This document shows, piece after piece, positions 1 to 49,777 of a stretch of 52,245 nucleotides of DNA. The DNA comes from Saprospiraceae bacterium (lineage in GTDB: Bacteria > Bacteroidota > Bacteroidia > Chitinophagales > Saprospiraceae), in contig JALWSS010000138.1 in assembly GCA_026993525.1 (NCBI GenBank), positions 1 through 52,245 on the forward strand, read 5' to 3'. The notes under the pieces are model-generated. The model worked only from the letters and a program-made list of their open reading frames with translations, did not search any database and was not told the DNA's origin. Position 1 is the stretch's first letter. Each line of letters starts with the position of its first letter. The translations under genes were made by a program, and so were the position numbers.

Positions 1-146
1 GTGGGCTTTGCTCATGGTCCATAACTTGAAATTGTTTCCTGGAGAAGGGGCAGAGTTGAAGACTTTCGTTAATCTTTCCTCCCCCAAACGGTCTGCTTAA
101 CCTCCTATCCCGAGCCGATACCGACCGTATTGGAGTATATTTTATT

Positions 147-240
147 GGTCGGTTGGCCGAGTGGCTAGGCAGAGGTCTGCTTAACCTCCTATCCCGAGCC
201 GATAGCTATCGGCTTCGGGATTCGAATCCGCTACCGACCT
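147..240 (+). tRNA. tRNA-like gene, tRNA-Cys body with GCT anticodon and palindromic variable arm (copy 1)
   Basis: Acceptor strands GGTCGGT (147-153) and ACCGACC (233-239) pair perfectly. The D-stem is GCC/GGC (156-158, 168-170), and the anticodon stem GAGGT/ACCTC encloses the loop CTGCTTA, giving anticodon GCT (179-181). The discriminator is T240, as in tRNA-Cys, and the D-loop also matches tRNA-Cys, whose loop would normally be CTGCAAA. Where the variable loop and 5' T-stem should be lies the palindrome 193-219; the T-loop TTCGAAT (221-227) remains, but the T-stem cggga/ccgct pairs at only two of five positions. CCA is not encoded directly. It may be a tRNA pseudogene or a class-II-like tRNA of unknown charging. 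Confidence 0.5.
193..219. repeat. 27-nt palindromic element inside the tRNA-like gene
   Basis: The arms CCCGAGCCGATAG and CTATCGGCTTCGGG form a long hairpin with one mismatch around the perfectly symmetrical core CCGATAGCTATCGG. The same element sits at the same place in the second copy (503-529). Palindromes rich in CCCGA/TCGGG recur elsewhere in this window (27126-27159, 49778-49806), so this looks like an interspersed family, here lodged in a tRNA-like gene. Confidence 0.75.
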
Positions 241-244
241 CTCC

Positions 245-271
245 AAAGGCGCCTTTCTGGCGCCTTTTTTT
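245..271 (+). terminator. Rho-independent terminator after tRNA-like copy 1
   Basis: GGCGCC (248-253) and GGCGCC (259-264) form a stem with a five-base loop, flanked by AAA upstream and followed by seven T. It lies five bases after the discriminator base, where a tRNA terminator would be. Confidence 0.85.
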
Positions 272-456
272 GTTGAATTGTTGAATTGTTGAGATTGTTG
301 AATTGTGGCGGTGGGCTTTGCTCATGGTCCATAACTTGAAATTGTTTCCTGGAGAAGGGGCAGAGTTGAGGACTTTCGTTCATCTTTCCTCCCCCAAACG
401 GTCTGATAAACCTCCTATCCCGAGCCGATACCGACCGCATTGGAGTATATTTTATT

Positions 457-550
457 GGTCGGTTGGCCGAGTGGCCAGGCAGAGGTCTGCTTAACCTCCT
501 ATCCCGAGCCGATAGCTATCGGCTTCGGGATTCGAATCCGCTACCGACCT
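457..550 (+). tRNA. tRNA-like gene, tRNA-Cys body with GCT anticodon and palindromic variable arm (copy 2)
   Basis: Same architecture as the copy at 147: acceptor strands GGTCGGT/ACCGACC, anticodon loop CTGCTTA, inserted palindrome (503-529) in place of the variable loop and 5' T-stem, discriminator T550. It differs by a single T-to-C change in the D-loop (GTGGCCAGG). Conservation of the acceptor, D and anticodon stems but not the T-stem in both copies shows that the altered form was the one amplified, not a later decay of each copy. Confidence 0.5.
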
Positions 551-554
551 CTCC

Positions 555-580
555 AAAGGCGCCTCAAGGCGCCTTTTTTT
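555..580 (+). terminator. Rho-independent terminator after tRNA-like copy 2
   Basis: Two GGCGCC arms separated by TCAA and followed by a run of seven T. The loop differs from the first copy (TCAA instead of TTTCT) but the stem is unchanged. Confidence 0.85.
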
Positions 581-765
581 GTTGAATTGTTGAATTGTTG
601 AGATTGTTGAATTGTGGCGGCGGGCTTTGCTCATGGTCCATAACTTGAAATTGTTTCCTGGAGAAGGGGCAGAGTTGAGGACTTTCGTTCATCTTTCCTC
701 CCCCAAACGGTCTGCTTAACCTCCGATCCCGAGCCGATACCGACCGCATTGGAGTATATTTTATT

Positions 766-815
766 GGTCGGTTGGCCGAGTGGCCAGGCAGAGGTCTGCT
801 TAACCTCCTATCCCG
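766..815 (+). pseudogene. Truncated third tRNA-like copy
   Basis: Begins with the acceptor strand GGTCGGT and continues through the D-arm and the CTGCTTA anticodon loop to TATCCCGA. The palindrome, T-arm and 3' acceptor strand are then missing, so it cannot fold as a tRNA. The break is followed at once by a different inverted repeat (820-863), suggesting that recombination between palindromes removed the 3' half. Confidence 0.75.
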
Positions 816-819
816 AAAT

Positions 820-1322: not shown

Positions 1323-1982
1323 TTATGGCCTTATAGTGCTAGCCATTTCGTCAAGTTCCAAATTGGAAAGAAACATTTGCGCTTGCGGAAAAACAATATT
1401 ATCCTCCCGGAAAATGTGCAACCTTAACAATTCAATCAGCGCCTTTCCCTGCTCCAATGCAGCATCCAACAGCACCAAACGGGAATTGTGTTCGGGCAGG
1501 CGCATGGACATTCCAAAAAAATTAAAAACGACAGCAGCAAGTTGTAATGCCTTGATATGGTCGTCCTCCAACATATCCACGGCGGTTATAGGAGTAGGTC
1601 CGTGGCCATGTTCGCCTTGTTCCAGTAAGCGCTTTTGCAACAAAGGGAACAAAATTTTATCCTCCTTTTGGTTGTGTACGACAATATTGTTGTCAAAAAA
1701 ATTAAAGAACCTGCTGAGTTTTCCTCCCACCGATTTGTCAATTCCTGTTTTCCGAATGATATTCAATGCTTCCTCGAAAGCGTCCAGTTCCTTGATGCAA
1801 GCTTTGTGCTCATCGCAAAGCTGTTGAAGAAAAGGGTGCAGCTCTTCATAAGGGATGGTTTTCATGTTTGGCGGAGCATAGGCATCGGGAGGTGCCATCG
1901 GTGAAAATTCTTTTTGCTCCTGCTGCTTTTCGGCATTCCTTTTCAAAGGGTCACCTTTGTTGATTACTTTTAATTCAATCAT
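1323..1982 (-). CDS. Hemerythrin HHE cation-binding domain protein
   Basis: This 219-residue cytoplasmic protein has one hemerythrin-type four-helix bundle (about 45-215). The di-iron ligand pattern is visible as H in DEHKACI, H..E in HNQKEDKILFP, H in EDDHIKAL and H...E in LHIFREDNIVFP. Members bind O2 or NO or protect against them; which one applies here cannot be told. The first 40 residues are charged, Pro-rich and predicted flexible. It is the last gene of the minus-strand nitrate island, 59 bases after its upstream neighbour, and is a second di-iron protein beside the Ric-type repair protein between narG and narH. That context favours a role in nitrosative or oxygen stress. Confidence 0.85.
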   Translation of the reverse strand: MIELKVINKGDPLKRNAEKQQEQKEFSPMAPPDAYAPPNMKTIPYEELHPFLQQLCDEHKACIKELDAFEEALNIIRKTGIDKSVGGKLSRFFNFFDNNIVVHNQKEDKILFPLLQKRLLEQGEHGHGPTPITAVDMLEDDHIKALQLAAVVFNFFGMSMRLPEHNSRLVLLDAALEQGKALIELLRLHIFREDNIVFPQAQMFLSNLELDEMASTIRP

Positions 1983-2041
1983 GTTATACTTTTTTTACAT
2001 TATTTCCAGCACTCCAAGTTCAACTACTGGAAGCAATGTAC

Positions 2042-2839
2042 TTATTCCTTTAATTTTTTAAACAACGGTTTCAGCGCATTTTCATAGGCATTTTTAATGC
2101 TTTCTTCCTGCGCTTCCAGTGGTTTTATGAGTACCAGGTCCATCACTTCGCCAGGTGACAAACCGGAATGATACATTGTCTTCACAGTGCCAGTTACCAT
2201 TTTCAATATTCCCGACTCAGCCTCTTGTCGGGAAAGTCCGAATGATTCGCCAAGCTCTTGCAATGCAAATAGTTGAAACCAAAGATAGGTAGGTCCCATC
2301 GCAGTAAGAATGGCAAAGGCTTCCAATTTTTCCTCTTCCACTTCGGGGCATTCTCCCAAAATGCCAAAAATGGAAGTAAGTTCGTCTTTTTCGGTTTGAG
2401 AAAATACATGGGAAAAAGCAAGGGGGGTATAGCCTGCGTTTACAATGGTGGGAGCGTTTGGTACTATCCGAACGATTCGCTGAAAACTACCTAAACTTTC
2501 TGCCATCTTCCCTATTGTGTATTTCGGTGCAAACGATATAAGTACCGCATCCGGTTTCAATTTGGATTTTATTTTTTTCAAAACACCACCCACCGCATTG
2601 GGATGAAGGGCAATGAAAACAAAATCCTTTGAAGCGGGCAGATCATTGTTGTTTAAGGCGGGAACAATTTCAGGATAACTATTTTTCAATTTGTTCAAAA
2701 CCGCCCCGTCCGTGTCGCTGACAATTACTTCACGGGGCATTTTCCCTGCATTTCGGAAGCCCCCTAAAACAATCCGGGTGGCCCGGCCACCTCCAATAAA
2801 ACCAAAAGTTTTGTCTTTCACTTTTTCGCTGAAGGTCAT
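2042..2839 (-). CDS. Pyrroline-5-carboxylate reductase-like NAD(P)-binding protein
   Basis: The 265-residue protein opens with a Rossmann fold (GFIGGGRAT near residue 13) and continues with motifs of the ProC family: VIVSDTD, FVFIALHP, RIVPNAPTIVNAG and a C-terminal helical domain with AMGPTYLW. True ProC reduces pyrroline-5-carboxylate to proline, but this copy is divergent (GGGRAT instead of GxGxMG; the usual C-terminal serine/threonine-rich active-site segment is not obvious), so the substrate is uncertain. I start at the ATG at 2837-2839, four bases after the upstream stop; an earlier ATG at 2866 would overlap it. Its place at the end of the nitrate island has no obvious explanation. Confidence 0.7.
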   Translation of the reverse strand: MTFSEKVKDKTFGFIGGGRATRIVLGGFRNAGKMPREVIVSDTDGAVLNKLKNSYPEIVPALNNNDLPASKDFVFIALHPNAVGGVLKKIKSKLKPDAVLISFAPKYTIGKMAESLGSFQRIVRIVPNAPTIVNAGYTPLAFSHVFSQTEKDELTSIFGILGECPEVEEEKLEAFAILTAMGPTYLWFQLFALQELGESFGLSRQEAESGILKMVTGTVKTMYHSGLSPGEVMDLVLIKPLEAQEESIKNAYENALKPLFKKLKE

Positions 2840-2843
2840 AAAT

Positions 2844-3167
2844 TTATTGTTCAAAGATATCGTCAATCCAAGACAACAAAGCCATCATGGACGGAAAACC
2901 AATGGTAGGCAGGGCAAGGAATGCAATGTGCTGCAATTCTTCCTTTGTGGCTCCGGCCCGCACTGCCTTTCGGATATGCGAATGAAAAGCCCCTTCCAGC
3001 CTGGCCCCACCCGATATGGCTACTTTTATCAAAGCACGGGTCTTGTCGTCCAATGGACCTGCCTTGTGGACAGCATCCCCTAAATCGGAATATGCTTTTC
3101 CGATGGCTGGGTATTTTTCCATGAATCGGGTGAACCGTTTGGGAATCTTATCTTTTGGTGTTGCCAT
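2844..3167 (-). CDS. Carboxymuconolactone decarboxylase / AhpD-like protein
   Basis: A protein of about 107 residues from the ATG at 3165-3167 (an upstream ATG at 3203 is possible). The sequence TRALIKVAISGGARLEGAFH, then AVRAGATKEELQHIAFLALPTIGFP, is the core of the CMD/AhpD all-alpha family. The CxxC of catalytic AhpD is absent (GGARLEGAFHSH keeps the histidines only), so a peroxidase-reductase role is doubtful; the family also holds decarboxylases and unknowns. It precedes the ProC-like gene by four bases, so the two are probably co-translated. The gap to the upstream narK is about 100 bases with no clear promoter. Confidence 0.75.
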   Translation of the reverse strand: MATPKDKIPKRFTRFMEKYPAIGKAYSDLGDAVHKAGPLDDKTRALIKVAISGGARLEGAFHSHIRKAVRAGATKEELQHIAFLALPTIGFPSMMALLSWIDDIFEQ

Positions 3168-3269
3168 GTTTTGCAAGTTTATTCTACAAAAATCCTTATA
3201 CACTGCACACCCCGTTTCATCATTCTTTCAGATGGCAAAACGTGGTGATGAGCAATTACAAAAGAACAA

Positions 3270-4871
3270 TTAAGGGTTTCTAACTTCTGCCTTAGGGCCT
3301 TGATAATACCACCAGTTCAGGGCCAAACATATTAAATAATAAGCAGCGAAACCGTAAAGCGCATATTCCGGTGTGCCGGCCTTGATTTGTTGCCCGAATA
3401 TTTTTGGAATAATGAACGCCCCATAGGCAGCAATGGCAGCGGTCCAGCCCAACACGGGGCCAGCCTGTTCTTTATTGAAAATATTAGGGATACTCCTGAA
3501 AGTCGAGCCATTGCCGATGCCAGTGGTCAGGAACAACAACATGAAGCAGGCGAAAAAGGGCCACCAATATGTTTCGGGCGTTTCACTGCTTCTCGCCTGA
3601 ACGACGAAATAGGCAACCGCCAATGTAGCAATGATCTGAACAATGGTACTACCTGCCGTCACTTTTGCACCACTATCAATTTTATCGGACAGCCAGCCCC
3701 CAACCGGGCGAATCAATGCACCGATGACCGGCCCCAGAAAAACCCATGTCAAAAAATTCGGGGCATTGGGATTGATGAATCCGGGATTCGAAGGGTCAGA
3801 ATACACAAATATATCCTGACACAATTTTGGGAAAGCCGCCGAAAAGCCAATGAAAGAACCGAAGGTCATGGTATATATAATGGTCATGACCCAAGTGTGT
3901 TTGTTACTGAATATGGCAAACTGCTCGTTCAAATTGGTCTTGATTTCTCCCGGAGTAGCATATTTCATCAGCATGACCGTTAAAACAATAACCACCGGAA
4001 GCACTATCCACATATTGATTTTCAAACTGACCAACATGTATGCCCCGATGCCACCAGCCACTAGACCCAATACAATCATGTAAAGGGTTTTTCCAATACC
4101 CTGAATGGTGTTTGGCAGTTTTGGCGTACCGGTAACGACGTTGTTCATGCCAAAAAAGGCTGCTATGGCAGCTATCGTCAAAACTGGAACCCATACCCAA
4201 CCTGCATTCTGGATGCCGGCAAGGGCTTCGTTGCTGACAATGTTCCCGTCCTTGTCAATCGCCGAGAAGAGGTACAGCCCAACCACCAGCGGTATCGTTT
4301 TTTGCATTACTCCAACACCGAGGTTGCCGATTCCCGCATTCAATCCCAACGAAGTACCTTGAACCCTTTTTGGAAAAAAATAACTGATGTTGCTCATTGA
4401 AGAGGAGAAATTACCGCCGCCAAAACCGGACAAGGCAGCAAGGATAGCAAATGTCATGTATGACGTGTTGACATCCTGCAAGGCAAAGCCGACTCCTATT
4501 GCAGGAATGAGTAGCAAAGCCGTACATGTAAAAATTACATTTCTACCTCCACCCAGACCAATAAGGAAGGAATTGGGAATTCTCAAAGTAGCCCCTGCCA
4601 GGCCAGCAATAGCAGGCAAAGTATAGTACAAGCTGTTGATATCTTTGAGTTTTTCAGTTATTTCTTCAGGACTCATGCCAGGTTCAATCATCCCGAAATT
4701 GTAACCAAATTCTTTCATCTTGGTGGCAATGACGCTCCACATTATCCATACGGCAAAAGCCAGCAGCAATGCCGGGATGGAAATCCAAAGATTTTTGGTA
4801 GCGATTTTTTTTCCGGTTGATTCCCAAAATTCCTTGTCCTCAACGTTCCAGTTTCGAATATTTATTGGCAT
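3270..4871 (-). CDS. narK: Nitrate/nitrite antiporter, NarK (E. coli NarK-like type)
   Basis: A 533-residue MFS transporter with about 12 membrane helices. The N-terminus (WNVEDKEFW, KNLWISIPALLLAFAVWIMW) and the nitrate-signature region GGGNFSSSMSNISYFFPKR followed by GLNAGIGNLGVGVMQ closely match the E. coli NarK/NarU type, which exchanges nitrate for nitrite. A second signature (TGIGNGSTFRSIPNIF) is present in the C-terminal half. It is longer than E. coli NarK (463) because of an extra stretch after helix 1 and longer central loops. It is the second of two adjacent narK genes, 12 bases after the first. Two differing NarK proteins side by side, like the NarK1/NarK2 pairs of Paracoccus or Thermus, suggest separate uptake and exchange roles. 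Confidence 0.93.
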   Translation of the reverse strand: MPINIRNWNVEDKEFWESTGKKIATKNLWISIPALLLAFAVWIMWSVIATKMKEFGYNFGMIEPGMSPEEITEKLKDINSLYYTLPAIAGLAGATLRIPNSFLIGLGGGRNVIFTCTALLLIPAIGVGFALQDVNTSYMTFAILAALSGFGGGNFSSSMSNISYFFPKRVQGTSLGLNAGIGNLGVGVMQKTIPLVVGLYLFSAIDKDGNIVSNEALAGIQNAGWVWVPVLTIAAIAAFFGMNNVVTGTPKLPNTIQGIGKTLYMIVLGLVAGGIGAYMLVSLKINMWIVLPVVIVLTVMLMKYATPGEIKTNLNEQFAIFSNKHTWVMTIIYTMTFGSFIGFSAAFPKLCQDIFVYSDPSNPGFINPNAPNFLTWVFLGPVIGALIRPVGGWLSDKIDSGAKVTAGSTIVQIIATLAVAYFVVQARSSETPETYWWPFFACFMLLFLTTGIGNGSTFRSIPNIFNKEQAGPVLGWTAAIAAYGAFIIPKIFGQQIKAGTPEYALYGFAAYYLICLALNWWYYQGPKAEVRNP

Positions 4872-4883
4872 GACTTTGTTGAT

Positions 4884-6374
4884 TTAAACATTCTCAATTT
4901 TCCGCATTAACTCCGGCGATTCTTTGTGCATCATTTTCGTCACAATTCGGTGCATCCAAATCAGGCACAAGGCAGAAAGAAACAGCATGAACATCCAGCA
5001 ACTCGTCCACAATCCGGTGCTTTCTAGCAAATACCCGAAAATAATCGGACAGAAGAAGCCACCTAAACCACCAAGTACTCCGACCATTCCTCCGACAACA
5101 CCCACTTCCTCGGGGAAATAATCCGGGATGTGTTTGTACACACCTGCCTTCCCGACGCCCCAGATACTGCCAATGAGAATGACGAGAACCGCAAAAATCC
5201 AAACATTCGCCTGAAAGAATATGCGGGTAATTCCCTTAGCCAACAATTGCTTTTTGACCACTTTATCACCGACCTTTACAATCGGTTCTTGCCAGACTTC
5301 TTTGGTGGGAAAAATAAATATCCCCTCATCATAATCAATATTTTCAATATCCCTTTTTACCAGTTGATAAGTCTTGTCATCCACCTTTATTTCGGCGTCT
5401 GACACCGCAGTGACTGTTCCTGCACGTTTTGCCATGATGCCCCTGCCCGGGGAGTTTATTTCCATTCTTGGAATAATCAATAAAAAGCTGATAATAACCG
5501 ACGAACTCAGCACCCAATACATCACTTTTCTGGCTCCCCATTTATCTGACATCCACCCGCCGAGCGCCCGTATGACCCCCGACGGAAAACTGAACAGAGC
5601 AGCAAAAATCCCCGCCGTCACCAAGGGCAAATAATATACATTTACGAAATAAGGAACGAGCCACTGAGAGAAGGCGACAAAGCAGCCAAATACGAGAAAA
5701 TAATACATACCAAAACGCCAGACCCTGATATTTTTCAATGGTCTGAGCATCCCTTTCAGCGTCCGTGCGCTTGAGGAAGGCTTTTTATTTTCGGTGAAAA
5801 TGAAAAACAAGATGCCCATTACCACCAAAGCAGCTGCATAAACTTTCGGCAACACCCGCCAGCCTTCAATATTGGTTGCATTATCGGTAAAATATTTCAG
5901 CAAAGTAGGTGCAAACAAGGTAGTGAGGGCAGCACCGGCATTTCCCGCACCGAATATCCCCAATGCCGTTCCCTGCTGATGTCGGGGATACCACACGGAA
6001 GAAAACGCAATTCCAATAGCAAAACTTACGCCCGCAAACCCGAACCCGAAACTGGCAGCAGCAAATTCAAAAAAACTATTTGCATAAGAAAGCAAAAACA
6101 TGGGAATGGCACAGAGAATCAACAAGGATCCGTAAACAGGTTTTCCGCCAAATTTGTCGGTCAAAATGCCAGCAGGCAACCTGAACAATGCCCCGGTTAG
6201 TACGGGAATACCCATCAGCCAGCCTATTTCCACGGGGCCCCAATCAAATACCTGGTTGTCAACCAAAAAGGTGACTAATACACCATTCAGCATCCAGGCA
6301 GCAAAGCATATAGTAAATGCCAGTGTATTGAAAAACAATGCTTTATGAGATTTGAATGTCGCTTTTTCTTGCAT
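4884..6374 (-). CDS. narK: Nitrate transporter, NarK1-like MFS protein with an inserted soluble domain
   Basis: A 496-residue MFS protein. Helices 1-6 are clear (AFTICFAAWMLNGVLVTFL, then LFRLPAGILTDKFGGK, FAGVSFAIGIAFSSVWYPRH, GIFGAGNAGAALTT), typical of NarK1/NasA-type nitrate:proton symporters. Between helices of the C-terminal half, about residues 305-390, lies a hydrophilic stretch (AGTVTAVSDAEIKVDDKTYQL ... VVKKQLLAKGI) that reads as a small beta domain and is absent from E. coli NarK. The last helices follow (GIWGVGKAGVYKHIPDYFP type motif, GVVGGMVGVLGGLGG). The start codon abuts the stop of the upstream small membrane protein. Nitrate import is the likely role; the insert has no known function. 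Confidence 0.9.
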   Translation of the reverse strand: MQEKATFKSHKALFFNTLAFTICFAAWMLNGVLVTFLVDNQVFDWGPVEIGWLMGIPVLTGALFRLPAGILTDKFGGKPVYGSLLILCAIPMFLLSYANSFFEFAAASFGFGFAGVSFAIGIAFSSVWYPRHQQGTALGIFGAGNAGAALTTLFAPTLLKYFTDNATNIEGWRVLPKVYAAALVVMGILFFIFTENKKPSSSARTLKGMLRPLKNIRVWRFGMYYFLVFGCFVAFSQWLVPYFVNVYYLPLVTAGIFAALFSFPSGVIRALGGWMSDKWGARKVMYWVLSSSVIISFLLIIPRMEINSPGRGIMAKRAGTVTAVSDAEIKVDDKTYQLVKRDIENIDYDEGIFIFPTKEVWQEPIVKVGDKVVKKQLLAKGITRIFFQANVWIFAVLVILIGSIWGVGKAGVYKHIPDYFPEEVGVVGGMVGVLGGLGGFFCPIIFGYLLESTGLWTSCWMFMLFLSALCLIWMHRIVTKMMHKESPELMRKIENV

Positions 6375-6821
6375 TTATTCAACAGGTTTTTGAAAGTTGA
6401 TTCGCCCTTTTTCAGGGTATTTTTTGGAATACCGGACGTAATATTTTCCGCCCGGCACTTTAATGTTATCAATTGGTATGGGGTGGTAGGTATTACAATT
6501 TTTATATTTTATTCCATCTATCTCATATTCGAATTCAATGCCTTTCCCTTTTGCAAATACTTCACAGAATCCAAGTGTCGTCCCAATAACATATTCACCT
6601 GAACTCAACATACTGCCTTCTACTTCAATCCATCTAAAAACAGGAATTGCCAATGCAAAAAAAACAATTGCGAAAACTATTCTGATGACTTTTTTTTTGC
6701 CCGAGCTTGTTTTCCATGCTTTGAGCAAATTCAACCCAATGCCAAATATCAGCAACCCAAGCAAGATGAACTTGACTGCCTGTGCTGCCATGAGTTCAAG
6801 ATCAGTTACTGTTAAAAGCAT
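6375..6821 (-). CDS. Small membrane protein of unknown function in the nar operon
   Basis: 148 residues with two predicted membrane helices (VKFILLGLLIFGIGLNLL near 17-34, IRIVFAIVFFALAIPVF near 46-62) followed by a soluble beta-rich C-terminal half (FEYEIDGIKYKNCNTY, GGKYYVRYSKKYPEKGRINF). The C-terminal pattern resembles DUF3592-like proteins, though I cannot assign it. It lies between narI (stop at 6826) and narK (start at 6374) with almost no spacing, so it is surely co-transcribed. An inner ATG at 6791 is an alternative start. Confidence 0.75.
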   Translation of the reverse strand: MLLTVTDLELMAAQAVKFILLGLLIFGIGLNLLKAWKTSSGKKKVIRIVFAIVFFALAIPVFRWIEVEGSMLSSGEYVIGTTLGFCEVFAKGKGIEFEYEIDGIKYKNCNTYHPIPIDNIKVPGGKYYVRYSKKYPEKGRINFQKPVE

Positions 6822-6825
6822 TAGT

Positions 6826-7563
6826 TTAGTTATTCTTCGGTCGCTTCAATGACCAGGGAGTGTGGGGCTTTCTTACCTCCCTGTTGTTCCAGTACCAAAT
6901 TACCTGCTGGTAAGGCCGCCATAGGTAGTCAATAGGGGGAACAAGGAAGTGAACCAGCCTCGAAAAAGGAATCAGCATAATAATCAGGAAAGCACCAACG
7001 ATATGAAATTTGACAACCCAAGGCAGGGCAGCAACTGCGGTGGCATCGGGTTGTAAAGCAAAAACAGACCACAGGTAGGGGGTCAGTACGGAAGCAAACC
7101 AGGAGGAGCCCCACCGGAAATTGTACGCCACCCAAAGACCGCTAAAAACCTGTATCAAAAGCAAGCCAATAATCACATAATCCATCTTGCTCGTCACTAC
7201 GGCTATTCGGGAGTTGGTTATCCTGCGGTACAGCAGATTGACAATTCCAATTAAAACAGCGACACCAAAAATAAAAGCTGTCACCTCCAATATTATCAGG
7301 CGTAAAGGATGAGCATTCCATGCCAGCACACCACTTGGGATCAGAAATGCAATCAAATGGCCAAGGAACAGAAACAAGATACCGATATGGAACGGCACTG
7401 TTCCCCAAAACAACTGCCTGCCCTCCAGAAACTGTGAGGACAGCGAGGAAAATTTGAACCCGTTTCGGTAACGCCATATTGACCCAATCACAAAAACAAA
7501 CAGTGCTATATAGGGCAAGGCAATTAGGAAAAAGTTATTGAGTGCATTGAAAAGATTTTCCAT
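6826..7563 (-). CDS. narI: Respiratory nitrate reductase gamma subunit (cytochrome b)
   Basis: A 245-residue membrane protein with five predicted helices. It carries two b haems and passes electrons from menaquinol to NarH. Likely haem ligands are the His pairs in PFHIGILFLFLGHLIAF and in KFHIVGAFLIIMLIPFSRLVHF, as in E. coli NarI. The start chosen is the ATG at 7561-7563, preceded by AAAGGAT; an ATG at 7632 would overlap narJ and adds a polar N-terminus unlike the family. The length matches NarI proteins (about 225-250). Confidence 0.95.
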   Translation of the reverse strand: MENLFNALNNFFLIALPYIALFVFVIGSIWRYRNGFKFSSLSSQFLEGRQLFWGTVPFHIGILFLFLGHLIAFLIPSGVLAWNAHPLRLIILEVTAFIFGVAVLIGIVNLLYRRITNSRIAVVTSKMDYVIIGLLLIQVFSGLWVAYNFRWGSSWFASVLTPYLWSVFALQPDATAVAALPWVVKFHIVGAFLIIMLIPFSRLVHFLVPPIDYLWRPYQQVIWYWNNREVRKPHTPWSLKRPKNN

Positions 7564-7635
7564 TGTATCCTTTTTACAGTTGAAATAATTTTGCCAATAT
7601 ATTTGACAGGCTTTCAAAATTTGCCATGTCAAAAT

Positions 7636-8301
7636 CTACGTTCCTTCCAATTTGTCCTCCGTCACGATATTCTTCAAAAAATCAGAAGACTCATCTTTCC
7701 GTTCTTCGTTTGTCAAAGTAAAATCCTGCTCCAACACTTTGAGCAACACCTCCAATGTTTTTTGATAAATGGTATAATGTTCTTTTGGTCGGTCAATGAT
7801 GGTTTTGTGTTTCTTTTTATAAAACTTGTCTTTCAATTCAATCTGCTCTGGCTCAAAACCTCGTATCATCCGCCGCAAAGAGGGAGCGATAATTCTTTTG
7901 ACCAATTCTTCCACAATGTAACCATCCTTCATTTTCGGCAACAGGCGCAAAACATTGGGCAGGTGGTCGGCAAGTTCCGAACCACAGTCGTTCCCTGCTT
8001 CACGATGCTCCCGATTCAGATTAACCAACAATTCTCCCCTTTTGTAATCATCACCAAACATCACATACCCTAAGTCCAGCGTTGTAACTGCCTGCACATC
8101 AAATGAGCGGATGAACAGTTCCTGTTGTGTGATCAAGTTTGCTTCTGAAATAAAGTTGGTAAAAGAGGAAAGCAGCTTTGCGGCTTCCGGGTATTGCTCG
8201 TCCAGACAGGATTGGACTTCCCTAACCTTCTCATTAAAACCCTCTCCTGGATAATCAAACAGGTTAGCAATCAACGAGTAATGCTTTATTGAGTTTTTCA
8301 T
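7636..8301 (-). CDS. narJ: Nitrate reductase molybdenum cofactor assembly chaperone
   Basis: A 221-residue cytoplasmic protein of the NarJ/TorD-DmsD chaperone fold. It binds apo-NarG and helps insert the Fe-S cluster FS0 and the molybdopterin cofactor. The recognisable stretch is YIRSFD-like FIRSFDVQAVTTLDLGYVMFGDDYKRGELLVNL, with ELADHLPNVLRLLP after it, both typical of NarJ. It sits between narH and narI in the usual order. The C-terminal third (after about 160) is Lys/Glu-rich and poorly conserved. Confidence 0.92.
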   Translation of the reverse strand: MKNSIKHYSLIANLFDYPGEGFNEKVREVQSCLDEQYPEAAKLLSSFTNFISEANLITQQELFIRSFDVQAVTTLDLGYVMFGDDYKRGELLVNLNREHREAGNDCGSELADHLPNVLRLLPKMKDGYIVEELVKRIIAPSLRRMIRGFEPEQIELKDKFYKKKHKTIIDRPKEHYTIYQKTLEVLLKVLEQDFTLTNEERKDESSDFLKNIVTEDKLEGT

Positions 8302-8340
8302 TTTACAAGTTTCAATTTTAGAGTTTACGGTTTGGCATTT

Positions 8341-9888
8341 CTAAAGCCCCCTCTCAGCTTTTTCTTTGAAACCAAAACCAACACTACCTTTTGTGTCGCC
8401 CGTAAATTCGAGCATCTCTAATGCCTGTTCCCGATGGGCAGGCGGAATGACGAAACGCTCATCAAATTTGGCAAGGGAAGTCAGTTTGTAAATTTCTTCG
8501 GCAGTTTCAACATCCATTCCCGCCCCCCTCATAGTGGCCTCCACTTTTTCCTCGGCAAGGTCACCGACCGTTACATTTCTCCGGTGGATACGCACTGCCA
8601 TCAGTTTTTTCAACACCACTTTTACTTTTTCTTCATCACCTGCGGCAAACAGGTTCGCTATGTACTTCAGTGGAAAGCGGGCTTGGTCAATCGTACCCCA
8701 CAGGTCTTCGGTACTCGTATCGTACAACCAGCTATCATTCCAGAATTTTGCGATAGGATCCAGTTTTTCACCTTGCGATTTATCCTGTTCTCCCAGCGAA
8801 GCCATAACGGGGAGCAATGGCGGGACATAAAAGAGCATCGGCAAGGTTCGAAATTCCGGATGCAGTGGCAACGCCAATCCCCACTTCTTGACAAATTTGT
8901 AAGTCGGGGAATATTGCGCTGCTTTGATAGTGGAATCAGCAACACCATTTTCCTTTGCCGCCTGAATCACACGGGGGTCGAAGGGGTCGAGCAACATGTT
9001 CAATTGACGGTCAATGAGTTTGCCTCCGTCATCAGAAGCCACGCTTTCAATTTGGTCAGCATCGTACAATATAACACCCAAATACCGAATCCTCCCCACG
9101 CAGGAATGCATACAAGCAGGCGCATAACCCGCTTCAAGTCGAGGGTAGCAAAGGATACATTTTTCGGATTTGCCCGTGTGCCAGTTGTAATAGGATTTTT
9201 TGTAAGGACAAGCGGTGACGCACATCCTCCATGCCCGGCAAACCTGCTGATTTATCAATACTACTCCGTCTTCCCCTCTCTTGTAAATTGCACCCGACGG
9301 ACAAGAAGCCACGCAAGCCGGATTGAGGCAATGGTTGCAGATTCTGGGCAGGTAGAAAAACGCCATCCTTTCCAGTTGGAACATTGCCTCCTGTTCCGCT
9401 GGAGACAAGTCCTGAAGGTTGGGGTCTTTCCTCGCATAGTCGGGTGTACCGCTGAGGTCGTCGTCCCAGTTGGGCCCCATTTTGATGTCAATGGGTTTTC
9501 CTGTAATCAGGGAAACGGGACGTGCCGTGGGCTGGTCTTTCATAGCCGGTGACTCGATGAGGTCAAGGTATCTGTAGGTGAACGGCTCGTAGTAGTCGTC
9601 AATGACGGGCAGGTTCGGGTTGTGGAAAATATTTAGCAAGCCCTTTTTCTTGCCTGCCCCTTTCAGATTAATGGTTCCGTTGTTTTTTTCCCAGCCGCCT
9701 TTGTAAATGTCCTGGTCTTCCCATTTGGTGGGATACCCGGTTCCCGGCTTGGTCTCCACATTGTTCCACCACTGGTACTCGACGCCTTTGCGGTCTGTCC
9801 AGATGTTTTTGCAGGCTATTGAACAGGTATGGCAGCCGATACATTTATCGAGGTGAAAAACCATTGAAATTTGGGCACGTACATTCAT
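8341..9888 (-). CDS. narH: Respiratory nitrate reductase beta subunit (four Fe-S clusters)
   Basis: A 515-residue iron-sulfur protein that relays electrons from NarI to NarG. The start MNVRAQISMVFHLDKCIGCH aligns with E. coli NarH. Cysteine groups: CIGCHTCSIAC (16-26), CNHCLNPACVASCP (about 187-200), CRAWRMCVTACP, where a tryptophan replaces a cysteine and so makes the [3Fe-4S] cluster typical of NarH, and CILCYPRLEAGYAPACMHSC. A C-terminal NarH domain follows (RIHRRNVTVGDLAEE). Unusually, its upstream neighbour is not narG but the Ric-type gene, 24 bases away. Confidence 0.97.
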   Translation of the reverse strand: MNVRAQISMVFHLDKCIGCHTCSIACKNIWTDRKGVEYQWWNNVETKPGTGYPTKWEDQDIYKGGWEKNNGTINLKGAGKKKGLLNIFHNPNLPVIDDYYEPFTYRYLDLIESPAMKDQPTARPVSLITGKPIDIKMGPNWDDDLSGTPDYARKDPNLQDLSPAEQEAMFQLERMAFFYLPRICNHCLNPACVASCPSGAIYKRGEDGVVLINQQVCRAWRMCVTACPYKKSYYNWHTGKSEKCILCYPRLEAGYAPACMHSCVGRIRYLGVILYDADQIESVASDDGGKLIDRQLNMLLDPFDPRVIQAAKENGVADSTIKAAQYSPTYKFVKKWGLALPLHPEFRTLPMLFYVPPLLPVMASLGEQDKSQGEKLDPIAKFWNDSWLYDTSTEDLWGTIDQARFPLKYIANLFAAGDEEKVKVVLKKLMAVRIHRRNVTVGDLAEEKVEATMRGAGMDVETAEEIYKLTSLAKFDERFVIPPAHREQALEMLEFTGDTKGSVGFGFKEKAERGL

Positions 9889-9912
9889 GATATATTTATT
9901 AAGCTGTTACAT

Positions 9913-10623
9913 TCAAACCTGCATCCCCACCGCTTTTGGAAACAGGATATTGTTTTCCAAATGAATATGCTGATGCAGGTCATCTTGAAATTCTTTCAGT
10001 TTGGCGTAAAGCACTTTGAACGTATTGCAGGCACCTTCTGGTAGTTGATATTGATTGCTCAATGCAGCAATTTCCTTGAATATTTCACCAGAGGTGTCAT
10101 GCTCGTTTTCCATCATCCTGATTGGGTTCTGTACCGTTCCAAATGGTGGATTGGGAATCGGCAAGCCTTTCCTTTTGGCTTCCACCATCATTTTGATGAA
10201 AGGAAAAAGAATCTGTTCTTCCTTTTGGAGATGTACGGGCAGGTCCTTCGCCACTTCATTGAACAGGTCTCTGATTTTGACTGTTTCCGTGTAATGATGC
10301 CCGTGTACCCTTGCCACTTTTTCGGCATATTGAACAATGAGGGGGATGTTTTCCTTCACATAAGTATGGTGCTTCTCAACGATGTAATCCACCAAAACAT
10401 CCAGTTCCCAATTGTTAAAATCATGCGATTCCGGGATGTCATTGCCCAACGCTAACAGTTCGGCTTCGATATGCGCATAATCAATGCTTTTCCTCCTGCA
10501 TATCTCAGCCAGGCTGACTCCGCCACCACAACAAAAATCTATTCCGTGCTTTTTGAAAACATCGGCTGCTTTGTAGTTTTCGGCAACTACTTCTGCTACT
10601 GTTTTTGATGCGGTTATTTTCAT
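9913..10623 (-). CDS. ric: Iron-sulfur cluster repair di-iron protein (Ric/YtfE/ScdA family)
   Basis: 236 residues. An N-terminal ScdA_N domain (ADVFKKHGIDFCCGGGVSLAEIC, about 20-45) is followed by a hemerythrin-type di-iron domain (about 80-230) with ligands in VEKHHTYV, VHGHH, HLQKEEQILFPF, ENEHDTSG and HIHLENNILFP. Family members repair Fe-S clusters damaged by NO or peroxide and release iron or reduce NO. The gene lies inside the nar operon between narG (stop 21 bases upstream) and narH, so production of the repair protein is tied to the enzyme whose side product is NO and whose subunits carry five Fe-S clusters. That order is not the common narGHJI. Confidence 0.93.
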   Translation of the reverse strand: MKITASKTVAEVVAENYKAADVFKKHGIDFCCGGGVSLAEICRRKSIDYAHIEAELLALGNDIPESHDFNNWELDVLVDYIVEKHHTYVKENIPLIVQYAEKVARVHGHHYTETVKIRDLFNEVAKDLPVHLQKEEQILFPFIKMMVEAKRKGLPIPNPPFGTVQNPIRMMENEHDTSGEIFKEIAALSNQYQLPEGACNTFKVLYAKLKEFQDDLHQHIHLENNILFPKAVGMQV

Positions 10624-10644
10624 AATTTTCTTTTTTACTCTTAA

Positions 10645-13600
10645 TTACCAAACCAGTTTCTCCATTTTTTTTACTATCACATGCGTGTCCCGGTTTGGTG
10701 CTATTGGTCCCCAATAATTAAAATGATAAGCAAACTGCCCATAACCACCGGCCAGGAAATTGGGTTTCAGGTGGACACGGGTAAAACTGTTGTGACCACC
10801 TGCCCGTTTATTGCCCCTCACTTGTGATTTCGGGATGCCCACCGTGCGTTCCGGCACGTGATAGACGATGCACACACCTCTTGGTATCCTCGCACTCACC
10901 ACCGCACGGGTGCAATACACGCCGTGGTCATTGTAAACTTCCACCCAATCGTTGTCTTTGATACCGAGTTCTTCGGCATCCTGCTCGTTAATCCAGCAGG
11001 GTTCGCAACCCCTCGAAAGGGTCAGCATCCGCAGGTTTTCCATGTAGGTGGAATGGATGTGCCATTTGCCATGAGGCGTGAGACAATTCAAAATTTTGGC
11101 TTCGCCGTTTTTCAAAGTATCCCTCAAATCACCGTAGGCTTCGGGTTTGGGGGAAGGCTTGTAGGTAGGTAAATTCTCGCCGTAAGCGATATACAATTCA
11201 TGGTCGAGATAAAGATGTTGCCGTCCGGTGAGGGTTCTCCAAGGCACGAGGCGTTCTACATTATAAGTGTAAGGTGCATATGCCCTGCCCCCGTTCATTA
11301 GGCCCGACCAGAGTGGGGAAGTATTGTACCGTCTTGGTTGCGCCAAAAGGTCGGCGTAGCGGATTTTGACGTCTTCGCTGCCTTCGGCGAGGTCGGCGAG
11401 TTTCATACCCGTTTTCTTTTCTGCATTTTTATATGCCCGCACCGTCAGTTTTCCATTTGTCAGGGTGGACAATTGCAGCACTGCATTTGCCGCCCATTCG
11501 TCTTCCTTGATGGAGGGACGAACCGTTCCGTTTGATTTCTCAACAGGGAAGTGGTTGGAATCGAGCATTTCATCGAAAGCATCTTCACACCTGAAATGAT
11601 TGCCATGTGCACCCAAGCCGTTTTTGCGAATATTGTCACCTAGTGAAATGTACTTGTCGTAAATCTTGGTGTAATCCCGGTCCACCACGGCAATTTTGTG
11701 CATGGTTTTTCCGGGAATAGCTTCACATTCGCCTTTGTACCAATCTTTGATTTCGGGCTGTGCAATTTCACCCGGAGAGTCGTGAGCGATGGGTGCGATA
11801 ACAACATCTTTTTGCGGCTTATTGAAATATTTTTCAGCCATTTCACTCGTCACCCTTGCAATTTGTTTGAAAATATCCCAATCCGTTTTCGATTCCCAAA
11901 CGGGGGCAATGGCTTGGCCGAGCGGATGAATGAACGAGTGAAGGTCGGTACTGTTGAGATCAGCTTTTTCATACCACGAAGCTGCCGGAAGCACAATGTC
12001 GGAATAAAGGGCAGAGGAGTCCATTCGGAAATTGAGATCAACAATCAAATCCATTTTTCCAAGCGGTGCATGTTCGTGCCACTTGACCTCTTTGGTGTGT
12101 TCTTCTGCTTCTTCGGCAATAGAATTGTGATGCGTACCGAGGTAATGTTTCAACGCATACTCATGCCCTTTCATACTGCCCATAATGGCATTTCCCCGCC
12201 AGATATACCACACTTTCGGATGGTTTTCGGGGGCTTCGGGATCACCCACAGCATATTTCAATTCCTTGGATTTCAATTTTTCCAAGACATAATCCTTGAT
12301 TTCCTCATTATTCGATGCACCTTTTTGCATTGCCTCTTTACTCAATTCCAAAGAGTTTTGGTGGAATTGGGGGTAAAATGGCATCCACCCCATTCGGACT
12401 GCCTGGAAGATAGTATCCGCTGTGTGTTGGCGCGTCCATTTATTGTCAGGGACAGTATTGTATTTTGAAAACTGCCCGTCATAACGATATTGACAGGTAT
12501 TGATATAATGCCAAATCGGAGCTTGTTGGAGCCGAATCGCACCTTGCCAATCTTTGCCAAAAGCAATGGTTCCCCATGAGTCCATCGGTGCGAGTTTTTC
12601 CTGCCCCACATAATGGTTCATACCACCGCCGTTTCTGCCGATACAGCCCGTGAACATCATTGAAACGATAGCCGAACGATACATCAAATTGGCGTGATAC
12701 CAATGGTTGATGCCTGCCCCGACAATGACCATACACTTGCCCCCAGTGACATTGGCGGTATTTGCCCATTCTTTGGCAAATTGAGTGACGGTATTCGCAC
12801 TTACGCCCGTAAAAATTTCTTGCCATGCGGGGGTATAGGCTGCATCCTTATCATTATAATCCGTCGGATAATCACCTTCCAAACCTCTGCCCACGCCGTA
12901 TTGTGCCATGCACAAATCATAAACCGTTGTGACGGGGATTTTGCCATTTACCGTATCAATGTATTTTACTGGAACGCCTCGTTTTCGATGATTACCCAAT
13001 CCGAATTCAGTAAATTCAACTTGTAAGACTTCATCACTTTTATTCAAAAAAGTAAGTAAAGGATTGTATTTCTCATCGGTCACGCCATCCTCCAATTTCA
13101 TGTTCCAGTTTCCGCCCTCTTTGTCCCAACGGAAACCTGAACTTCCTTTCGGCACGATGAATTTCCCATTGTCTTCGTCAATATTGAGGAATTTCCAATC
13201 GCCGTTTTCAATGTCTTTGTACTGAGCCAGTTCATTTGCCCGAACTAATCTGCCCTGCTTGTACACATCACCGTCTTTTTCCAATTTCACCAAATACGGA
13301 CTGTCGGTGTATTGTTTTGTATATTCCAAAAAGTAAGGCGTTTGCTTTTCGTGGTGCCATTCCTTCAAAATAATATGTGTGACTGCCATCCAGAAAGCAC
13401 CGTCGCTACCCGCATGGAGCGGCACCCATTGGTCAGCATATTTGCAGACTTGGCTGAAATCGGGTGCAAAAACTACGGTTTTAGTACCATTGTGCCGTGA
13501 TTCGGCGAAGAAATGGCAATCAGGAGTACGAGTCATATTCAAACAAGCCCCCATGTCAGCAATCATTTTGGCGTTGTACCAATCGGCACTTTCGCACACA

Positions 13601-14262
13601 TCCGTTTGCTCGCCCCAGATTTCGGGGAAGGCTGTCGGAAGGTCACAATACCAATCGTAAAAACTCAAATTGACACCTCCGAACAATTGTAAAAACCGCC
13701 CCCCGGCTGCATAACTCATCATGGACATGGCAGGAATCGGAGAGAATCCAACCACTCGGTCCGGACCGTATTTCTTAGCCGTATAAATATTGGACACCGC
13801 CATGATTTCCAAAACCGTATCCCAACTCACTCTCCGGAAACCACCCTTCCCACGGGCTTGCTGGTAACTTTTACGGGCGTCCTCATTGTTTTGGAGGTTT
13901 TCCCATGCCTTCATCGGGTCGCCCCCGGCGTTGAGTTTTTCCCTTTGATATGCATCAAGCAGTGCACCCCGAATCAACGGATACTTAATCCTCAGAGGGC
14001 TGTATAGGTACCAGGAATAGGAAATCCCCCTCTGGCATCCACGGGGTTCGTATGGAGGAAGTGAACTTTCCAAGAGTGGGTAATCCAACTGCTGTGTTTC
14101 CCAAACGACGATGCCGTCCTTTACGTGGATTTGCCAAGAGCAGCCACCCGTACAGTTCACGCCATGCGTACTGCGCACGATGCGGTCGTGCTGGAAACGG
14201 TTGCGGTAAAATTCTTCCCATTTGCGGGTTTGCGGGGAGATTATATCTTCTATCCAACTCAT
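10645..14262 (-). CDS. narG: Respiratory nitrate reductase alpha subunit (Mo-bisMGD catalytic subunit)
   Basis: About 1205 residues. NarG reduces nitrate to nitrite at a molybdenum bis-MGD site. The N-terminal [4Fe-4S] motif appears as [12 protein letters not shown] with the His ligand typical of Nar[25 protein letters not shown] follows. The Mo-ligating aspartate is in [19 protein letters not shown]. There is no twin-arginine leader, so the catalytic site faces the cytoplasm as in E. coli. The C-terminal molybdopterin-binding domain ends [16 protein letters not shown] start at the ATG at 14260-14262 ([11 protein letters not shown]); an ATG at 14316 would add a non-conserved stretch overlapping the promoter-side gap. 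Confidence 0.98.
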
Positions 14263-14324
14263 GCTCTTACTGTATTTTAAGTGAAAAATTGGGATCAAAC
14301 AGTTGACAACTTTCAATCAGCGAT

Positions 14325-15155
14325 TTAATTGAAAGACTTTATTTGGCGTTTGTATATATCGTAGTTGACACTCTTACTTTTCCTGCTATACCAAAGCCCG
14401 CCATATAAAACAAGCAAGCCCATAGCTCCCAGAATGCCAAACAGTATGTAACCGGACGCCATTAAATTGCTTGGTTGTTTGACATTTTTCAGGAAAACCA
14501 GCAAATCGTGAATTTCCCCTTCTGTCAAGTCATGCCCCTCAAAAGCCTGGGCCATTACCGGGAAAGGAGGGTTTTGCAAAATGGCCTTCACCCCTGCCTC
14601 GCCCAAGTTGTCAAACGAAGCACCCACATCTTTGCCCGAAAAACTGTTTTCGGCAAGAAAAATATTGCTCTGGCTATTGTGGCAGGAGATGCAGGAGGGG
14701 CCGCCGTTGGCAAACCTGACCCGTCCTTCAAACAGGTTTTTGCCATTTTCGAGGTCTTCAGGTGTGGCATCCTCAATGACGGAAACCGGTTCAGCTGTGC
14801 CGACACCTCCGTCGGAATTGGCAGCGATATAGCCCAAAATTGACTTTATCTCCGTATCGGTAATCATGGGGTCGGGCATGATGACCTGGTTGAATTCTTC
14901 AAAGAGTGCCATAGCATCCGGGTCACCACTTTTAATCATGGTCTGGGAGGAGTGGATGAATTTGAGCAGCCACTCTTCCGACCGCCGTTCGTGAACATTG
15001 GCAAGGTCGGGGCCAACCAGTCTGCCACTTCCGATGGTATGACAAATGCCGCACTTCAATTTGAACAAATCCGCTGCTTCGGCGTCGCTTTGTGCAATAG
15101 CCGGGGCTTCAATCAACAAACCAAGTATGGCAAGAAGGAAAAATATTTTATTCAT
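14325..15155 (-). CDS. Membrane-anchored dihaem cytochrome c upstream of narG
   Basis: 276 residues: signal peptide (KIFFLLAILGLLIEAPAIAQ), a first haem site CGICH near residue 34 with GRLVGPDLANVHERR and a Met-bearing VIMPDP, a second site CISCH near 155 with FPVMAQAF, then a C-terminal membrane helix (YILFGILGAMGLLVLYGGLWY) and a short basic tail. The protein is thus periplasmic and anchored at its end. A cytochrome c next to narGHI recalls NarC of Thermus and haloarchaea, where it feeds electrons to the enzyme, but that role here is inference. The start ATG at 15155 has AGAGG eight bases before it. Confidence 0.88.
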   Translation of the reverse strand: MNKIFFLLAILGLLIEAPAIAQSDAEAADLFKLKCGICHTIGSGRLVGPDLANVHERRSEEWLLKFIHSSQTMIKSGDPDAMALFEEFNQVIMPDPMITDTEIKSILGYIAANSDGGVGTAEPVSVIEDATPEDLENGKNLFEGRVRFANGGPSCISCHNSQSNIFLAENSFSGKDVGASFDNLGEAGVKAILQNPPFPVMAQAFEGHDLTEGEIHDLLVFLKNVKQPSNLMASGYILFGILGAMGLLVLYGGLWYSRKSKSVNYDIYKRQIKSFN

Positions 15156-15260
15156 GATTGTACCTCTCATTTATGTGTGATTCCAAGGTTTTTCAGCATT
15201 GATGACTTCTGAAAAAGGTCAACACCAGACTTAGACCTACCTCCCTTCGATAAAACAATT

Positions 15261-16523
15261 TCAGTTTATATCCCTGGTGCTGAACAACTCCGGCTTTAAT
15301 GCCAGCATCATCCAGCCCCACGAACTGGTTTTGTCCATGCTCCCTCCTTTGATTTGTTCCGTGGTGGCATTGGAAAAGTAAAATGACAGACCTACATTGA
15401 AGGTAGCGTAAGACGCAATCTTGTACCCGAACACGGCATCTATTTCGCCCCCCAGGTTGCTGTCAAGCATTTCTCCTGGATTCGACAAATCGGCAACGTC
15501 ATTGGCTAACAGAAACTGGTGGTAGAAAAATTTCAAAGAGGACTCGTTGCCAACATTGAAATTGGCATTGAAGTAATAATCTTGCAAACCACCGCCACCC
15601 GTATCTGCCGGGATGTTCAGGAAATAATCCATCCACCCGTAAAACTTGTGGTTGGTGGCGTAAAGGGTATTAAAAGCCTGAAAGTCCTTGTCGTTCGGGT
15701 CATCACCGGAGACGAAATCAAGCCCGGCAGCCAGGGTTGTTTTACCGATTTTGTACGAAGCCCTTACATTAAACAAGTATGCGGCTATGCTTGCGTTGGT
15801 TTTTGTCTTGCCACCTTGCCAATAAGCACTTCCTTCAAAGCTCAAATGGCCCGTTTTATAGGCCAGCAGCGTCCCTAAGGTATATCGCCACGACAAGTCG
15901 TGAACGGTATCATTTTTCTCATAAGCATCCGTTGCCAAAATTCCGCTCCAGGAGAACTTGTCGGATTTTTTTTCTGCGTGCAAAAAGGTGAGTACTTTGT
16001 AATTGTCTGTGCGGTAATCGGTAGTAAAGATATTTTCGCCCGATTGGTTGAATGCCCCACCCAAGTCGAGTTTCAGCCCTTCCTTCTCATACTTAAACAT
16101 CAGGGCATCGTGGCTTCTTGCCTGCTGCGCCCAATTCACGTTTCCCAACAGCCGATGCCCGTCATAGGCGATTTCCTGCCGCCCCGCTTTAATGGCGAGG
16201 TTTTCGGAAAGTGCCAATTGCCCCCAGGCTTCGTGTAAACCGAAACTGGGGTCTTTTGCCAATTGCCTTTCCATACCCCATACCCGAATATCCTGGGGGG
16301 AGATGAACAATTTCAGTTTGTCATTTCTGAAGGCGAGGTTGAGCCTTGTGCGTTGGGAGACAAAAAAAGCAGGGTCGGAGTCAACGGATTTTGGAATCCT
16401 GTACCCGCTCCGGAATTCCGATCGTGGTATGAGCTGCGCGGAAATGGTGAATTGGGAGAACAGTTGTGAAAAGCTGCCCATTATCATCAAGGTGGCAAGT
16501 AGAATTATAGCCGAATTTCTCAT
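15261..16523 (-). CDS. Outer-membrane beta-barrel, alginate-export-type porin
   Basis: 420 residues with a signal peptide (IILLATLMIMGSFSQLFSQF) and many alternating beta strands. The region RSEFRSGYRIPK ... RTRLNLAFRNDKLKLFISPQDIRVWG ... GLHEAWGQLALSENLAIKAGRQEIAYDGHRLLG is characteristic of the alginate_exp (PF13372) family, found in many Bacteroidota near respiratory genes. It is the first gene after the Fnr-like sites and is preceded by AAAGGAG. I infer that it lets nitrate or nitrite cross the outer membrane; alginate itself is not implied by the context. Confidence 0.82.
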   Translation of the reverse strand: MRNSAIILLATLMIMGSFSQLFSQFTISAQLIPRSEFRSGYRIPKSVDSDPAFFVSQRTRLNLAFRNDKLKLFISPQDIRVWGMERQLAKDPSFGLHEAWGQLALSENLAIKAGRQEIAYDGHRLLGNVNWAQQARSHDALMFKYEKEGLKLDLGGAFNQSGENIFTTDYRTDNYKVLTFLHAEKKSDKFSWSGILATDAYEKNDTVHDLSWRYTLGTLLAYKTGHLSFEGSAYWQGGKTKTNASIAAYLFNVRASYKIGKTTLAAGLDFVSGDDPNDKDFQAFNTLYATNHKFYGWMDYFLNIPADTGGGGLQDYYFNANFNVGNESSLKFFYHQFLLANDVADLSNPGEMLDSNLGGEIDAVFGYKIASYATFNVGLSFYFSNATTEQIKGGSMDKTSSWGWMMLALKPELFSTRDIN

Positions 16524-16634
16524 GTAAAAACTCCTTTAAACCCTTGATTTTGTACCCTAAAGGGAACCTCTGAATACATCTTCGAAGATTTCCTTAGGAG
16601 CCGTAAAGGAGCAGGGAATGATCTTGAAAATAAA

Positions 16635-16672
16635 TGTTCTATAACACAAGGAGAATATGTTCTACAACATAT
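16635..16672. promoter_or_regulatory. Two Fnr/Dnr-like palindromic operator sites upstream of the nar operon
   Basis: A perfect 7-4-7 palindrome ATATGTT-CTAC-AACATAT lies at 16655-16672. A weaker copy with the same half-sites, TGTT-CTAT-AACA, lies at 16635-16646; the centres are 23 bases apart. Sites of this geometry bind Crp/Fnr dimers, and one such regulator is encoded 98 bases further on at 16800-17537. The sites are 112-150 bases before the porin start and lie on the path of minus-strand transcription from regulator to porin. Confidence 0.65.
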
Positions 16673-16799
16673 TTTGGCAGGAGTGTTGATTCAGGACGGA
16701 TTCAATATATTTTACACTGAAAATTAAAAGTTATATAAGTAAAATAGCCAGCTATTGAAAAGTTGAGAACCCTGGACAACACATGCAATGGCATCGCGC

Positions 16800-49704: not shown

Positions 49705-49774
49705 GGAAATGAGGAATTGAGGAACTGAGGAACTGAGGAACTGAGGAAGTGAGGAACTGAGGAATTGAGGAACT
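49703..49774 (+). repeat. 8-bp tandem repeat (GAGGAACT, nine units) overlapping the vWA stop codon
   Basis: Nine consecutive octamers of GAGGAACT with variants AAAT, AATT and AAGT at the end of the unit, starting inside the TGA at 49702-49704. A further GAGGAACTGAG recurs at 49834. Confidence 0.9.
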
Positions 49775-49777
49775 GAG

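Follow-up and report, generated by a model that had tools for sequence, protein, structure and literature searches.

The first 816 nucleotides of the window (the whole 52,245-nt stretch that was analysed, which is contig C138 of a 5.16 Mb Saprospiraceae genome in 230 contigs, here G000) raise the question of how copies of a tRNA-Cys gene came to be broken by palindromes and repeated in tandem. A first-pass annotation had described an amplified array of tRNA-Cys-like genes at this place, and the array is real: TRF returned a unit of 309-310 nt in approximately 2.6 copies with 97% matches at window 1-816 (forward strand), and a repeat search of the window matched 1-254 with 311-564 (98%) and 620-873 (78%), giving units at 1-310 and 311-619 and a truncated third from 620. 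The copy number is a lower bound, because the array begins at the contig end. According to our junction table, tRNA-Cys copies lie on the forward strand at 147-241 and 457-551, and a third at 766-816 (tRNA match 766-810) ends within its palindrome. Compared with the intact tRNA-Cys of the genome, the first two copies carry a nested 29-nt palindrome, TCCCGA[GCCGATAGCTATCGGC]TTCGGGA (192-220 and 502-530), in place of tRNA positions t46-51, CAGCGG, and TT for AA in the anticodon loop, the second copy differing at one further base. The loop CTGCTTA that had been described is thus seen in both copies; the palindrome is also there, although it measures 29 nt rather than 27 and, as it replaces CAGCGG, it is the 5' half of the T-stem that is gone rather than the variable loop and whole T-stem. 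Each copy had been said to keep its acceptor, D and anticodon stems and a terminator, which holds for two of the three, the third lacking the acceptor 3' strand and the terminator; a terminator-like inverted repeat, recognized from the inverted repeats and the T-run, follows copy 1 at 245-267 (forward strand), with a similar one at 555-576. Each unit also contains one 3' tRNA-Cys fragment with half a palindrome and a deleted T-arm (90-126, 400-436 and 709-745, forward strand, from the repeat search and junction table), the second of which has the loop CTGATAA. The inner palindrome GCCGATAGCTATCGGC has 31 occurrences across the genome, compared with 0 for the control. A TTGTTGAATTG-type repeat at 270-306 and 579-615 is present at many other sites of the genome, and TRF found a tandem 8-nt repeat, TGAGGAAC, in approximately 9.5 copies at window 49702-49777.

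Neither ARAGORN nor Rfam RF00005 found a tRNA in the window, and the predicted folds of the window copies keep the acceptor pairing and have no T-arm. The first-pass annotation had suggested looking for a normal tRNA-Cys and a normal tRNA-Ser(GCT), and the genome has both, the former (anticodon GCA) at 95-166 of contig C184, near the contig end, and the latter at C134:15436-15522 (Rfam). A new class-II or Ser(GCT) tRNA was rejected, given the normal tRNA-Ser(GCT) and the unscored window copies. Among the three readings originally offered, a novel tRNA-like RNA, a decoy, or a pseudogene spread by repeat recombination, the last comes closest, because the window copies are unscored as tRNAs, an intact tRNA-Cys exists and the predicted folds lack a T-arm; the sequence appears to lend no support here to the other two. 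We take the array to be, most probably, a dead remnant.

On C184, an older Cys copy, with TCCCGAAGACGTTCGGGA in place of CAGCGG, lies upstream of the intact tRNA-Cys, retains GCA and is still scored as a tRNA (ARAGORN; Rfam, 35 bits). A matching Cys pair, with the palindrome TCCCGAAAGCTTTCGGGA, lies within one contig of the congener G004, and the tRNA parts of the older copy are identical in the two genomes, the 20-nt spacer behind it differing at four places by our by-eye count. Such constancy beside a varying spacer would suit broken copies that are expressed, functional tRNA-like RNAs or decoys, as would the scoring of the older copy as tRNA-Cys and the predicted folds of the window copies, which are better than those of shuffled sequences (z -4.8 and -4.9). 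However, the window copies are unscored and predicted to lack a T-arm, the arm that is broken varies by copy, some copies miss one end, and gene conversion from the intact neighbour would likewise keep the tRNA parts alike, so that we regard a functional RNA as quite improbable.

In G002, G004 and G012, tRNA-Cys is flanked by the same upstream and downstream protein genes, and the single tRNA-Cys between these neighbours in G002 and G012 is apparently the original state. In G000, the upstream neighbour is on C184, where the Cys copy retains this native gene as palindrome-broken copies elsewhere do, and the downstream neighbour, which directly follows tRNA-Cys in the three relatives, is at window 18108-18533 on the reverse strand (tblastn, 88% to G004), approximately 17 kb behind the array; we take it to be queD-like. 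Past its tRNA-Cys pair, C184 runs into the start of the window's array unit, and this shared unit start, together with the synteny of the Cys neighbours in G002, G004 and G012, supports the order C184 (reverse complement)-C138. Self-comparison of the relatives' tRNA-Cys loci (L083-L110) revealed a second Cys copy in G004 only, L093 giving two matches of 13 nt besides. Among 396 genomes of the order, a sample without G004, one showed the Cys palindrome pattern, namely G000 itself.

The approximately 17 kb between the array and the next native gene are occupied by a nitrate respiration cluster (window 1323-17537), in which Pfam recognized hemerythrin, an MFS transporter, NarI- and NarH-like proteins, a molybdopterin oxidoreductase and a Crp-like regulator, an island-like gain at the tRNA-Cys locus. 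This would favour the array being the scar of an integrase-type genomic island, but the far end has no tRNA-Cys piece (within the window tRNA-Cys matches only at 147-551 and 766-810), no integrase was found among the seven island proteins run against Pfam, and G004 has the Cys pair without the island, all of which makes such a scar very unlikely. Misassembly at the repeats deserves still less credence: the array does begin at a contig end, but the Cys pair of G004 is inside one contig and so are the Met, Arg and fMet arrays of G000.

The Cys locus has counterparts in the same genome. Using self-comparison of 30 tRNA loci and three more together with the junction table, we found palindrome-bearing extra copies at seven tRNA loci of G000 (Cys, Met, Asp, Asn, Pro-TGG, Arg-CCT and fMet), where the palindromes replace 0 to 13 nt of the tRNA in clear cases. 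A perfect GC-rich stem of at least 6 was present in 16 of the 26 extra copies scored. This set omits any copy truncated by a contig end, as well as the initial Pro copy of C145, a repeat of the final one on C134, and it includes both of a pair of Asp copies that face each other at contig ends and may be a single copy. The other ten have no hairpin under this strict rule, which overlooks imperfect palindromes; by eye, three are Arg copies with just such imperfect palindromes, four are window copies with half palindromes, two (Asp and Pro) carry a seemingly decayed palindrome and one Pro copy carries none. At L077 (2305-2511), two tRNA-Met copies have CCCCGATAGC-type palindromes replacing GAGCGC; the second copy still scores as a tRNA, although its type is unknown and its anticodon has four letters.

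Palindromes are, however, frequent genome-wide, with 627 occurrences of TCCCGA..TCGGGA against 2 for the control, and may therefore merely settle in spare DNA. On such an account, tandem tRNA duplicates would arise by ordinary recombination, the abundant palindromes would collect in the extra copies because no selection acts there, and a nuclease would be irrelevant at Cys. That palindromes also nest in one another outside tRNAs fits this neutral account, which we consider possible but on the whole unlikely. A 44-nt perfect palindrome at L076 (11509-11552) consists of three nested ones, CCCCGATA[CCGAAA[GCCGATAGCTATCGGC]TTTCGG]TATCGGGG, and here, as in the window palindrome, it is as if palindromes insert at the centres of palindromes. 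As for a mover, the genome has two Y1_Tnp places, and the one that was read (L119) sits among CCGTTCC..GGAACGG palindromes, which are of a different family; on this one place a Y1 transposase was provisionally set aside.

What the neutral account leaves unexplained is a nuclease. At the Arg, Asp and fMet loci of G000, the tRNA copies enclose a GIY-YIG gene whose open frame spans 93-99 amino acids, and the genome's five short PF01541 places, one of them interrupted by an inner stop, all fall in palindrome-broken tRNA arrays; three further PF01541 places are in long frames. All three small nuclease proteins that were searched matched PF01541 with E values of approximately 1e-19, and Y, G, R, H and E are invariant in 17 aligned nuclease sequences; these are presumably the catalytic residues. 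In the G000 sequence read, no GIY-YIG gene was seen at the Cys or Met arrays, which favours the neutral account, or at the Pro-TGG or Asn arrays, and none was seen at the Cys locus of G004 either. Elsewhere in the genus, the Pro array does have a GIY-YIG gene in G006 and G011, and the Asn array has one in G012. All 19 genus loci of the small-nuclease subfamily adjoin a tRNA or tRNA fragments, compared with none of the nine loci of a longer sister subfamily (a count that excludes one contig-edge place, G010:C584).

The palindrome positions recur between species, which also argues against neutral colonization: in Arg, the position between 21 and 22 is common to G000, G004, G009 and G011 and that between 55 and 56 to G000, G004, G008 and G011; in Asp, a palindrome follows position 31 in G000, G006 and G008 and, decayed, in G001; and in Pro, one follows position 28 in G006 and G011. 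The broken copies largely match their own species' tRNA, even where the species differ, and are therefore either recent or kept alike by gene conversion. At L161 and L166, from two species, tandem repeats of 81 nt, each joining tRNA-Pro 1-28 to a palindrome and then to a decayed 3' part, lie directly upstream of an intact tRNA-Pro. At L135, ARAGORN calls a tRNA-Val that we read as a palindrome-armed Pro-GGG copy.

A five-protein profile search of genome contigs, with a profile that leans to Asp- and Arg-type relatives, gave 396 relatives, and we examined the best 80 of these, from named genomes, which were picked for likeness to the tRNA-linked nucleases. According to the record titles, these 80 come from Bacteroidota, Ignavibacteriota, Patescibacteria, Omnitrophota, Planctomycetota, Margulisiibacteriota, KSB1 and others; Marivirga atlantica (L203), a cultured species, is one of them. 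An ARAGORN tRNA lies at most 700 nt from the nuclease gene in 67 of the 80 loci, and in 59 there is a partial copy of that tRNA too; of the 13 loci with no ARAGORN tRNA within 700 nt, seven have tRNA fragments and six none that is convincing, four of these six falling within one clade of five (support 98). There was no Cys label among the 80 loci. Viral carriers (three loci) have no ARAGORN tRNA and short tRNA-like matches beside the gene, and are too few to use. The layout is regular. At 58 loci the gene's strand carries both an intact tRNA and a fragment. The nuclease gene precedes the tRNA at 43 of them, of which 36 show a 5' fragment upstream and 28 have the nuclease stop codon inside the tRNA; at the other 15 the gene follows the tRNA, and nine of these have a 3' fragment downstream. 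At L226 (2741-3173), tRNA-Asn matches 8-34 and 35-63 are 377 nt apart and split at the anticodon, perhaps an intron-bearing tRNA.

The fragments are rich in palindromes. Hairpins occur at 10.0/kb in fragments (77 in 7,712 nt, including 25-nt flanks on each side; 61 of 85 copies, strict-rule hairpins being absent from the other 24), compared with 1.07/kb in intergenic sequence (29 in 27,169 nt) and 0.43/kb in intact tRNAs (3 of 90, flanks excluded). This roughly 10-fold excess over intergenic sequence at the 80 loci is again contrary to the neutral account. Of 64 insertions in fragments, several of which represent one event, 45 have a stem reached by at most 5% of shuffles, and one 20-nt palindrome, CCTGCCTGCCGGCAGGCAGG, is found repeatedly in Bacteroidota and also in a single Patescibacteria record (L248). 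Moreover, nuclease lineages follow the tRNA isotype: on a tree of 100 nuclease sequences, 94 of them labelled by the neighbouring tRNA (seven labels set by hand), the isotype label changes 43 times compared with 67-77 times in 200 shuffles, for a tree with few columns and shuffles that ignore relatedness. Neutral colonization leaves this tracking unexplained, as it does the nuclease association.

An occupied and an empty site could be compared at tRNA-Arg, where G009 (occupied, with two cassettes) and G010 (empty) are alike upstream (69% over 511 columns). In G009, the first broken copy is at the place of the G010 tRNA, and the intact tRNA follows at a distance of approximately 760 nt; beyond it the match to G010 extends for only about 8 bases. 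In a second comparison (G000 and G004 with G002), the alignment lay in the tRNA only, so this evidence consists of one pair.

Taking these observations together, we lean towards the view that the window array is the nuclease-less remnant of a tRNA-targeted mobile GIY-YIG cassette. In the full form, the observed layout is a small GIY-YIG gene between copies of one tRNA, of which one is complete and the other keeps an outer flank of the locus and carries at least one short palindrome in its D, anticodon or T arm. The nuclease would cut uninvaded alleles of its own tRNA gene, and repair from the invaded chromosome would copy in the cassette together with the replacement tRNA, since any nuclease with its own tRNA gene as target would need to supply a working tRNA. 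Tandem arrays could then arise as the tRNA repeats are cut again and recombine. The displaced copy in its native flank would stay a target unless broken, and a captured palindrome would destroy that target and would also interrupt the homology that might otherwise allow deletion of the cassette. The cell's intact tRNA gene would itself have to escape cutting, and recognition reaching into the native flank is one possibility. The hairpins themselves are a possible target, because the best sequence matches with solved structures are UPF0213 proteins (PDB 1zg2 and 1ywl) and SLX1 entries. The Cys array would belong to this system by analogy with the other loci of G000, its nuclease gene having been lost or the nuclease having acted from elsewhere. 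Against this view stand the Cys loci of G000 and G004, where no GIY-YIG gene was seen, the single hit for the Cys pattern among 396 genomes, the nuclease loci and broken copies that lack a tRNA or a strict-rule hairpin, the genome-wide abundance of such palindromes, and the choice of the 80 loci by likeness to tRNA-linked nucleases.

Beyond the Cys locus, a GIY-YIG gene, an isotype-matched tRNA and a palindrome-broken copy form a larger and strong pattern, which across several phyla has the look of a selfish element that inhabits tRNA genes and has drawn little notice. More tentatively, and with somewhat less than even confidence, we suggest that Bacteroidota, Patescibacteria and other phyla harbour in their tRNA genes a widespread class of mobile elements, so far unnamed, that consist of one gene. 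Each lineage would be bound to one isotype, supply a replacement tRNA and leave a palindrome as its mark in the displaced one. Nuclease and short palindromes would then be two halves of one system, the nuclease perhaps acting on hairpins as an SLX1-like structure-specific enzyme and swapping one for another. Our literature search, with preprints and most subscription journals outside its scope, listed no paper on bacterial GIY-YIG genes with broken tRNA copies or on these palindromes. If this view is right, homing cassettes of a single gene reside in the tRNA genes of several phyla and are overlooked by annotation, because the broken copies are missed or miscalled. The ancestral sequence of a palindrome in a tRNA copy is known, so that its insertion can be followed at every base, seldom an option for short palindromes of bacteria, and here a testable nuclease adjoins.

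Several known systems invite comparison. Rickettsia palindromic elements are short palindromic repeats that insert inside genes, and we know of no nuclease-tRNA cassette among them. The SLX1 structure entries that are sequence-nearest to the small nucleases are titled structure-specific endonuclease, and to our knowledge neither UPF0213 nor SLX1 proteins have an association with tRNA genes. Partial tRNA copies, like those described here, are miscalled by annotation tools and have been attributed to integrated elements or CRISPR-Cas activity; the available part of that report differs in mentioning neither GIY-YIG genes nor palindromes (PMC9897764). In CPR bacteria, insertions with GIY-YIG or LAGLIDADG genes occur in rRNA genes, which resembles our loci in placing small GIY-YIG genes in structural RNA genes, partly of the same phyla, but the host gene is rRNA, and tRNA and palindromes are absent from the text as far as it was available (PMC11270868). 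SegB, a GIY-YIG homing endonuclease of T-even phages encoded beside tRNA genes, has the reported motif RAWTSGAAC (PMC13096335), which by our reading of the letters would be the reverse complement of the tRNA T-loop consensus. Compared by description, SegB is phage-borne, and the available part of that source describes no palindromes and no displaced, broken copy of the neighbouring tRNA (PMC13096335). It is nevertheless a GIY-YIG enzyme by tRNA genes that is reported to cut within them and to drive tandem amplification of a tRNA segment, and thus offers a tested parallel for both the cutting and the tandem amplification (PMC13096335).
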